Shown: positions 3,095 to 5,284 of the stretch, piece after piece | How positions within the stretch are numbered: the stretch's first letter is position 1 | Layout: the number at the start of each line of letters is the position of its first letter | Source: Candidatus Alcyoniella australis | Lineage (GTDB): Bacteria > Lernaellota > Lernaellaia > JAVCCG01 > Alcyoniellaceae | Assembly: GCA_030765605.1 (NCBI GenBank) | Contig: JAVCCG010000156.1 | Span: 1-5,455 of the forward strand | Reading direction: 5' to 3' | DNA: 5,455 nt | The notes under the pieces: model-generated | Databases searched by the model: none | What the model saw: the letters and a program-made list of their open reading frames with translations, nothing else | Told to the model about the DNA's origin: nothing | Made by a program: the position numbers and the translations under genes

Positions 3095-5179
3095 ATGAGT
3101 AACGATAAGATCCTGATCCTCGACGATGGCCCGGCTGGTCTGGAAAAGGAAGGCAAGGATAAAGACAAGGACAAACTTGGGTTCTCGATCTTCCGCGATG
3201 TGATCTGCAAAATCATTGACGCGCAGGACCTGGAAAGTTCGTTCACCATCGGTCTGTTCGGCCAATACGGTTCGGGCAAGACCACGGTGCTGCGTTGGAT
3301 ATTCGATGCCGCGACGAAGAAGGATGCAGTGGTGACGGTGTGGTTCAACCCCTGGCGCTTTGTGCAGGAAGAGCACCTGATCATCCCGTTCTTTCATGCC
3401 CTGGCCGATGCACTGAGTAGTTACAAGACACCAGACCCCACTGTCCGAAAGACGGTTAAGGGATTCTTGAAAAAGGTGAAAATGATCCCGGCGGCCCTGG
3501 CCCACGGGGCCAAGCTCGGCGTTTCGTTGCCCGGAGGGTTGGCGAGTGTTGAGATCGATGTGGAAAGGGCATTGGCCTATGAAGAATCAGCCAAAAGAAA
3601 AAAAATAGATAAATTAAAGGATGAGTATCAAAGCCTATATTACAACCTGACCGAGCAGCTGACAGCGGAGGTCAAGGATTTTCGCGTTGTGGTCTGTATC
3701 GACGATCTGGACCGTTGTTTGCCGGAAAAGGCGATCGAGCTGTTGGAGGGGATCAAGGTTTTTCTCGATATCCCCGGATTCTTCTTTGTCATCGGCGTTG
3801 ACGAGCGCGTTATCCGGCGCGGGATCGAGGTTCGTTACCAAGACTTCACACTCAACAAATCCGCGAAGATCCCCATCGATCCCGGCGAATATCTGGAGAA
3901 GATCATCCAACTGCCGATCAACCTTCCCACACCCGCACAGACCAAGATGAAGGCCCTGATAAAAGAGAAGACAAAGGGCGACAAGCAGCTTACCAATTAC
4001 TGCGACCTGGTCTCGGACGTGATGCAACGCAGACCGCGGGCCTGCAAGCGCGCGATCAACATGCTCTCGACCAACATTGCTTTGGCCGATGCTCGGAAAA
4101 AGCAGGACACGGAGTTTGATTATAAGCCAGACCTGCTGGCCAAGTGGACGCTGCTCAGATCGTTGGCCAATCCGGAGCTGATCCGCTGGATAGAGAAAAA
4201 ACCGTCTCTTCTGTTCGATATTCAGCAGGCAATCTCAAAGGACGACCAGCAAATGTCAGGGCCGAAATTAAAACTTCCCGAAGAGCTGACGGACTGGGAT
4301 GCGGTAATTACCGGGGACTGGTATGAAGATGTGTGTGCAATTCTTGTCACGGGCGGTGAGTCAAAATTAGAGGTATTTCCTAACGATGAACGGGAGATAA
4401 GAAAGTATATCGAATTGGCCGCGGCTACTGGAATCGATAAACCGGAATCAAAGGGTGTGCGACGGACGAAAAGCCGCAGAAAGCCGGGCGAAATGGTGCG
4501 CATCCCGGCGGGCGAGTTCTGGATGGGCAGCGACGATGGAAAACCTGATGAGAGCCCGGCCAGACGTGAGCAAACCGGTGCATTTGATATCGGCGTATTC
4601 CCGGTGACCAATGCGGAATTTAAGGTATTCATTGATAACGACTCAGAGTATTTCAATCGAGTCCGCAACGAGGAGCGATTCCTTATGCATTGGGAAAGGG
4701 GGGATGAAGAATCAGCAAATTGGAATCCGCGCACAGGCAAGGAAAATCACCCGGTTGTGTTTGTGAATTGGCACGATGCTGCGGCCTACTGCAAATGGCG
4801 CAGCCAAAAAGAGGGAAAACACTATCGTCTGCCCAAGGAGAAAGAGTGGGAAAGGGCGGCCAGGGGAGACAATGATCAGCGGAAATATCCCTGGGGTGAT
4901 GAGTTCGATTCTGCATTCTGCAATTCCGAATCATCGGACATTGGGGATACCAATGAAGTCGGGTCATACCCCGAGGGAGCGAGCCCCCACAGTTGCCAGG
5001 AGATGGCCGGCAACGTCTGGGAATGGTGCGATGATTGGTACGACCGATGGAAAGATTCCCATGTTGTTCGCGGCGGTTCCTGGAACTACAATGCGTTCAA
5101 CATACGCGCATCGAGTCGCCTCAGGATCGGGCCGGATGCTCGCGGCTACTACATTGGATTTCGACTTTCCCGGGACTGA
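3095..5179 (+). CDS. KAP-family P-loop NTPase fused to FGE-sulfatase-like (C-type lectin fold) domain; candidate DGR target
   Basis: A 694-residue two-part protein. Residues about 27-335 are a KAP NTPase. They contain DKLGFSIFRDVI, Walker A GQYGSGKTT (56-64, K62), the KAP-typical VWFNPWRFVQEEHL (82-95), Walker B VVCIDDLDR (199-207), DIPGFFFVIGVDERVI (225-240), GEYLEKIIQLPINLP (264-278) and a basic QRRPRACKRAINML segment (311-324). KAP members such as F-plasmid PifA (phage T7 exclusion) and Kidins220 often carry membrane segments between Walker A and B; here only a weakly hydrophobic patch (130-150) is seen, so the protein is probably cytosolic. A linker (about 340-464) leads to an FGE/SUMF1-like domain (465-694): PAGEFWMGSDDGKPDESPA, FPVTNAEF, HPVVFVNWHDAAAYCKWRS, RLPKEKEWERAARG, YPWGDEF, EMAGNVWEWCDDWYD, VVRGGSW and IGFRL. 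The two FGE catalytic cysteines align with Y665 and I670, so it should not make formylglycine. The likely role is nucleotide-driven sensing or defence (inference). No clear ribosome binding site precedes the start, but no alternative start fits the domain boundary. Confidence 0.88.
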   Translation: MSNDKILILDDGPAGLEKEGKDKDKDKLGFSIFRDVICKIIDAQDLESSFTIGLFGQYGSGKTTVLRWIFDAATKKDAVVTVWFNPWRFVQEEHLIIPFFHALADALSSYKTPDPTVRKTVKGFLKKVKMIPAALAHGAKLGVSLPGGLASVEIDVERALAYEESAKRKKIDKLKDEYQSLYYNLTEQLTAEVKDFRVVVCIDDLDRCLPEKAIELLEGIKVFLDIPGFFFVIGVDERVIRRGIEVRYQDFTLNKSAKIPIDPGEYLEKIIQLPINLPTPAQTKMKALIKEKTKGDKQLTNYCDLVSDVMQRRPRACKRAINMLSTNIALADARKKQDTEFDYKPDLLAKWTLLRSLANPELIRWIEKKPSLLFDIQQAISKDDQQMSGPKLKLPEELTDWDAVITGDWYEDVCAILVTGGESKLEVFPNDEREIRKYIELAAATGIDKPESKGVRRTKSRRKPGEMVRIPAGEFWMGSDDGKPDESPARREQTGAFDIGVFPVTNAEFKVFIDNDSEYFNRVRNEERFLMHWERGDEESANWNPRTGKENHPVVFVNWHDAAAYCKWRSQKEGKHYRLPKEKEWERAARGDNDQRKYPWGDEFDSAFCNSESSDIGDTNEVGSYPEGASPHSCQEMAGNVWEWCDDWYDRWKDSHVVRGGSWNYNAFNIRASSRLRIGPDARGYYIGFRLSRD
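5069..5176 (+). other. Candidate diversity-generating retroelement variable region (VR)
   Basis: These are the last codons of the KAP-FGE gene, residues 659-694. A fixed frame (RGGSW, R671, S673, R675, R677, P680-D681, R683, IGFRL) alternates with positions that are Asn (AAC/AAT) in typical DGR template repeats of this fold. Here N664, N666 and N669 remain AAY, while Y665 tac, F668 ttc, S674 agt, L676 ctc, I678 atc, A682 gct, G684 ggc, Y685 tac and Y686 tac all end in C or T, as adenine-directed mutagenesis of AAY codons would leave them. The location at the C-terminus of a C-type-lectin-fold protein, just before the stop, is the classic VR site. No template repeat or reverse transcriptase is in the window, so this rests on pattern alone. 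An undiversified FGE tail could look similar. Exact VR limits cannot be set without the template. Confidence 0.55.
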
Positions 5180-5194
5180 AAAATTACCCTTGAG

Positions 5195-5218
5195 CCCTTT
5201 TTCCCTTTTACCCTTTGC
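5195..5218 (+). repeat. Three tandem CCCTTTTN-like octamers
   Basis: CCCTTTTT (5195-5202), CCCTTTTA (5203-5210) and CCCTTTGC (5211-5218) follow one another without gaps. A further partial CCCTT lies at 5187-5191. Together they form a pyrimidine tract between the stop codon and the GC stem-loop. Function is unknown; such tracts are prone to slippage. Confidence 0.6.
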
Positions 5219-5220
5219 CT

Positions 5221-5242
5221 GCCCCGAGCTTGGTCGAGGGGC
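5221..5242. repeat. GC-rich imperfect palindrome with tandem G-A mismatches
   Basis: GCCCC (5221-5225) pairs with GGGGC (5238-5242). Inside the stem are two opposed G/A pairs (5226-5227 against 5236-5237), then G5228-C5235 and a small loop. This has the architecture of the dispersed palindrome CCCTGAGCYTGTCGAAGGG that I recall from many environmental bacterial genomes. It sits about 42 bases beyond the stop of the candidate VR gene. It may be an interspersed repeat, a 3'-end structure or a hairpin of the kind found next to DGR variable regions. No U-run follows, so terminator function is doubtful. Confidence 0.5.
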
Positions 5243-5284
5243 CGGGTTTCGCCGGTGTGGAAACGAGTTGCAGCCACTGAATAG

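Follow-up and report, generated by a model that had tools for sequence, protein, structure and literature searches.

KAP NTPase–FGE gene at a contig end

The stretch of DNA analyzed here (the window) is the entire contig C156, with a length of 5455 nt, and belongs to a genome assembly of 4.29 Mb (G000; 157 contigs, 98% complete), which is the sole genome of its own family among those compared; the phylum set comprised seven genomes. The features that the analysis relies on are the following:

3095–5179, plus strand: intact KAP NTPase–FGE (C-type-lectin-fold) fusion gene, 694 aa (open reading frame and Pfam)
3197–3994, plus strand: KAP P-loop NTPase domain, residues 35–300 (Pfam; top PADLOC matches PifA and QatA)
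4490–5167, plus strand: FGE/CLec-fold domain, residues 466–691 (Pfam, AlphaFold2 model and Foldseek)
5069–5176, plus strand: putative DGR-type variable region (VR), 36 codons (gapless register with template repeats, TRs, of relatives)
5168–5178, plus strand: TCCCGGGACTG, 3' end common to the TR and VR of G005 and to the VRs of G006
5177–5223, plus strand: pyrimidine-rich conserved non-coding element after the stop codon, ACCCTTGAGCCCTTTTTCCCTTTTACCCTT, about 47 nt
5221–5242, plus strand: imperfect inverted repeat, GCCCCGAGCTTGGTCGAGGGGC, weak (z +0.5), where several relatives' VRs carry strong hairpins

The encoded protein matched the Pfam families KAP_NTPase (1e-38) and FGE-sulfatase (9e-49), and both a Walker A (GQYGSGKT) and a Walker B motif (VVVCIDD) were found in it. 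With a KAP/STAND NTPase followed by a C-terminal FGE domain, it displays the fusion that characterizes NTPase–FGE sensors. The FGE domain as modelled by AlphaFold2 (pLDDT 83) had FGE enzymes as best Foldseek matches, and also matched the Treponema DGR variable protein TvpA (2y3c) with an E value of 1.6e-12. A function as a catalytic formylglycine-generating enzyme was considered and rejected, as the GGS..C....C active-site cysteine pair of true FGE enzymes is missing from the protein, which reads GGSWNYNAFNI, with no Cys, vs. GGSYMCHRSYC in SUMF1. On the minus strand, positions 1–627 hold a truncated open reading frame (N-terminus PDIIFMISDCLRHDYF...), which appears sulfatase-like by eye and had no Pfam match at 1e-3.

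Codon pattern of the C-terminal tail

The last 36 codons (5069–5176) translate as RGGSWNYNAFNIRASSRLRIGPDARGYYIGFRLSRD. An earlier note on this DNA had read this tail as a diversified DGR variable region, on the grounds that nine variable residues with codons ending in C or T stand beside three retained AAY asparagine codons. The codons are indeed as described, since all nine end in C or T and the three asparagine codons are present (N664, AAC; N666, AAT; N669, AAC). When these 12 positions were compared with the DGR templates of relatives, 11 coincided with template-adenine codons, while F668 did not. The nine residues were, however, chosen post hoc. NNY codons amount to 69% in the last 36 codons vs. 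50% across the gene, and 5.8% of 35-codon windows are equally or more NNY-rich; this enrichment on its own is modest, hence weak, and was discarded as evidence for a VR. Further, the RGGSW...R...GFR frame is the usual C-terminus of FGE-fold proteins generally. Given a generic frame and a mild NNY enrichment, the observation alone, taken without the relatives, would be weak.

An independent test, and a stronger one, uses the 12 codons at which the TRs of both related species have template adenines. In the window, all 12 are NNY (background 0.52, P = 4e-4). When the same register was surveyed more widely, each TR and VR from the complete DGRs of the phylum also scored 12/12, and unselected FGE C-termini ranged from 5 to 12; the three other FGE genes of G000 placed in this register gave values of 6 (C1), 9 (C85) and 12 (C34).

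Complete DGRs and sister variable regions in related genomes

Relatives within the class carry complete DGRs, with RT and bAvd genes adjacent at two loci in G004 and at one locus in G005, and with TR/VR pairs present. Caspase–FGE proteins serve as targets at the G005 locus and at the one G004 locus that was checked. In both TR/VR pairs of G004, mismatches were found exclusively at template adenines, of which 21/34 and 22/33 were changed, vs. 0 of 81–82 non-A bases. The translated G004 template, RGGNWNNNPRNNRASNRNNNRPDNTNNNIGFRCSRD, aligns gaplessly and codon for codon with the window tail. At non-A positions, the window VR is unlike the G004 TRs at 21 of 74 sites, and unlike the G006 sister VRs at 15–16 of 73–76. 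The shared 3' end at 5168–5178 is the probable initiation-of-homing end.

In the intact DGR of G005 (C11; L133:9959-11878), the VR of the caspase–FGE target (approximately 10070–10180) is 1 nt shorter than the TR, which shifts the frame, and the open reading frame runs on into the post-stop element. Two sets of candidates from other genomes were rejected: the avd-like matches in G002 and G003 are 23S-IVP four-helix proteins instead, and the RTs in G001 and G002 showed only 29% identity to the G005 RT and had no TR/VR pair nearby.

An orthologue of the window gene, 51% identical in the KAP part, was found in G006, where it bears a VR. This VR is one of a group of four, which also includes those of a DUF4062–NACHT–FGE gene, a NACHT–FGE gene and a short FGE gene. 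Within the group, 26 of the 34 template-A columns are variable vs. 6 of the 74 others (P = 1e-12), and the non-A columns are 92–97% identical, with values of 18–80% for the FGE coding DNA directly upstream. As judged from these alignments, the pattern bears the mark of adenine-directed copying from a single template. Compared with the group, the window was 79–81% identical at non-A columns, 29–34% at A columns and 81–83% in the post-stop element. No RT was found in the 96%-complete G006 assembly, and several of the inferences drawn from G006 depend on this one draft of approximately 50 contigs. The orthologous gene itself is interrupted at about residues 161–166 by an apparent frameshift, either genuine or an assembly error (C5; L139/L116).

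In G000, the FGE C-terminus encoded on C34 (L189:4900-5007), which has 12/12 NNY codons and no post-stop element, is as close to the VR frame of G006 as the window is, and is possibly another orphan VR. Because this tail without the element is equally similar to the G006 frame, similarity of the VR core by itself was rejected as evidence.

Conserved element behind the stop codon

The element at 5177–5223 is common to the window and to the VRs of G006, G005 and G004, and is not present in the TRs of G004 and G005. Window positions 5147–5224 showed 79–85% identity to eight dispersed G006 sites and to the 3' terminus of the VR in G005 (E down to 1e-14); each of the eight long matches in G006, like the one in G005, spans the VR end, the stop codon and then non-coding DNA. 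The post-stop part used alone as a query yielded an E value of 9e-10. Within this set of search matches, the element was seen, besides the window, only behind VRs, namely those of dispersed G006 FGE genes and of the G005 DGR; the exact element pattern had no match in viral contigs.

Strong hairpins are located 3' of the element in G005, in G004 (C46), in the G006 KAP–FGE copy and on contig C111 of G000. The window palindrome at 5221–5248, CCCCGAGCTTGGTCGAGGGG, lies within a stretch that has short matches scattered in G001 and G003 and is possibly a REP-like repeat. The termini of two G006 contigs (C25 and C6; L204 and L205) lie precisely within the 3' part of the element, which suggests more VR loci broken in the assembly.

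Homing in BPP-1 requires 24–35 bp just downstream of the VR, outside the TR homology (PMC3240598). By analogy with this requirement, a similar role for the post-stop element is plausible.

Search for a template, reverse transcriptase and avd in the same genome

The DGR reverse transcriptase that the earlier note had called for did not turn up, as the 98%-complete assembly yielded neither an RVT_1 protein by profile nor a homologue of the DGR RT of the phylum. The search for an adenine-biased second copy was likewise negative: template patterns, which accept any template that this VR could have been copied from, matched only the VR itself when up to 3 violations were allowed over 38 and 44 nt. 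As controls, the same pattern logic located the BPP-1 template, with 0 violations across the greater part of its VR, and the Pfam models employed detected the BPP-1 RT and Avd. The window contains no near-repeat of the VR, a DNA search of G000 returned, besides the VR itself, only short matches, part of which lie in other FGE genes, and no relatives of the FGE domain were detected in viral contigs. This negative result for template and RT in G000 is not final, because only 276 nt of contig follow the stop codon and other contigs break inside VRs: C100 ends within another VR, and the start of C32 coincides with that of a further one.

Of the avd accessory gene, contig C1 holds a frameshifted relic: the contig begins with a VR-type hairpin, behind which stands an avd N-terminus with a match to bAvd rather than to the IVP family. 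After it lies a gene with a weak HEPN (RiboL-PSP) match, below the curated cut-off (L198:102-1262).

Another FGE gene, located on contig C111, has a VR plus the element at its end, and approximately 190 nt behind it lies a truncated TR. Ahead of the truncation, 9/9 mismatches between this TR and the C111 VR fall at template adenines, and the frame leading into the TR resembles the final codons of a DGR RT. The truncated TR, the avd relic and the further VRs in G000 indicate that the lineage had DGRs. At non-A sites, the window VR is unlike both the other G000 VR and the truncated TR, and it was therefore not recently copied from the remnant template.

Origin and present state of the variable region

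The KAP–FGE tail (residues 659–694) is, in our judgment, very probably a DGR variable region by descent. This central proposal of the earlier note is upheld, on sequence comparison, by the homology with same-class TRs and VRs, by the VR-linked post-stop element and by the diversified sister VRs, one of them on the orthologue. Counted against it are the lack of an RT and of a template, the drift at non-A positions, the non-discriminating VR core and the weak hairpin. The additional claim that the gene is rapidly evolving now is not supported, in view of the negative search for RT and template in the assembled genome. In G000 the retroelement would have been lost, would have decayed or would lie in unassembled DNA, so that the window VR is most likely orphaned, or else a remote target served in trans, and not a component of a local cassette. 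The FGE/C-type-lectin domain would then form the tip with which a KAP-NTPase conflict protein senses its ligand, and adenine-directed mutagenic retrohoming from a TR would in the past have diversified residues of this tip; past diversification of the window VR itself is what we infer from these comparisons.

Were the gene instead one that no DGR has ever acted on, its frame and loop variability would be generic to FGE-like domains, in keeping with the fact that non-DGR FGE proteins share the frame, that ordinary homologues show variation in these loops too, and that NNY enrichment alone is modest. Such an ordinary domain, already disfavoured, is very improbable in light of a post-stop element otherwise seen only with VRs, an orthologous G006 gene that bears a diversified VR, and a gapless register with same-class TRs in which the window scores 12/12 and C1 and C85 only 6 and 9, but C34 also 12. 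A more serious possibility, which we nonetheless do not favour, is that the VR is live, with RT and template residing on unassembled or unbinned DNA and rewriting it in trans or from beyond the contig end; this is a sub-case of the reading as a DGR variable region, and the likelihoods given to the two are not meant to sum to one. The contig end so close to the stop, the breaks of C100 and C32 at VRs, the 12/12 template-defined codons that are still NNY, and the at least eight VRs of G006 that seem recently homogenised, yet stand in an assembly without RT, are all compatible with live rewriting. It is opposed by the failure of both profile and phylum RT query at 98% completeness, by the truncation of the sole TR found and the frameshift in the avd relic, and by the unlikeness of the window VR to the other G000 VR at non-A sites.

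The element, for its part, could be a shared terminator or a dispersed repeat that moved with duplicated FGE gene ends, in which case its conservation would reflect recent duplication and not homing-site function. Its pyrimidine-rich composition, the inverted repeats after several copies and the two G006 contigs ending at its 3' part, as repeats would, agree with this. We nevertheless regard it as unlikely, because the coding and downstream flanks of the G006 sisters are 18–37% identical in most pairs, in contrast with 83–97% for frame and element, and because 8/8 long G006 matches, as well as the G005 match, lie behind VR stop codons.

Taking the tail as a DGR variable region by descent, we tentatively suggest, with more doubt than confidence, that in this phylum one cassette of VR plus post-stop element is common to unrelated KAP–FGE and NACHT–FGE sensors throughout the genome and is served in trans, the element being a new cis-acting address of homing targets. 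The locus ties a KAP-NTPase sensor of a sparsely sampled phylum to DGR-driven diversification, and VRs become recognizable without a local retroelement through their conserved 3' element. If the element is a homing address, orphan or remote DGR targets that are missed by template-based searches become findable.

Comparison with known systems

The closest FGE homologue outside the phylum, a NACHT–FGE protein of Anaerolineae (L035), is a DGR target in its own right, with an RT and TR/VR. Along with L035, the extra-phylum homologues L043 (caspase–FGE in Methylumidiphilus) and L104 (two VRs in a Deltaproteobacterium) are DGR loci with clean TR/VR pairs. A scan of L045, L078, L036 and L037 revealed no clean pair.

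The BPP-1 DGR (Mtd) resembles the window in its C-terminal VR and in adenine-directed TR/VR mismatches, and has a cis element downstream of the VR, beyond the TR homology (PMC3240598); it differs in that its target determines phage tropism, has another N-terminal architecture and has all components in cis. Treponema denticola TvpA (2y3c), a solved DGR variable protein, shares the fold (TM 0.74; sequence match 4.6e-6), but is only 22% identical in the structural alignment, and the matched entry shows just the variable protein and no NTPase. The phage defence proteins PifA and QatA have the KAP domain in common with the window protein (PADLOC E 1e-32); their matches, however, span only residues 21–371 and 34–284 of it, and are therefore uninformative on the FGE tip and VR.

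The nearest parallel is offered by the NTPase–FGE antigen sensors that DGRs diversify in multicellular bacteria (Doré et al. 2024, PMC10907252; Kaur et al. 2021, PMC8195603), for which the portions of both papers drawn on here name KAP as an alternative NTPase. According to the same portions, these sensors have a central NTPase (NACHT, nSTAND1 or KAP) and a C-terminal FGE/CLec domain with a VR, with the DGR nearby or elsewhere in the genome and several targets per genome. The window assembly differs in that it holds no RT or complete TR, and the window VR in that it is followed by a conserved post-stop element, which those portions do not describe. On the analogy of the Kaur and Doré sensor families, and of PifA and QatA, to which PADLOC matches the KAP part, the KAP–FGE protein presumably senses a ligand and may act against phages. 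DGR-diversified KAP/NACHT–FGE sensors are already described, and the window gene joins them.
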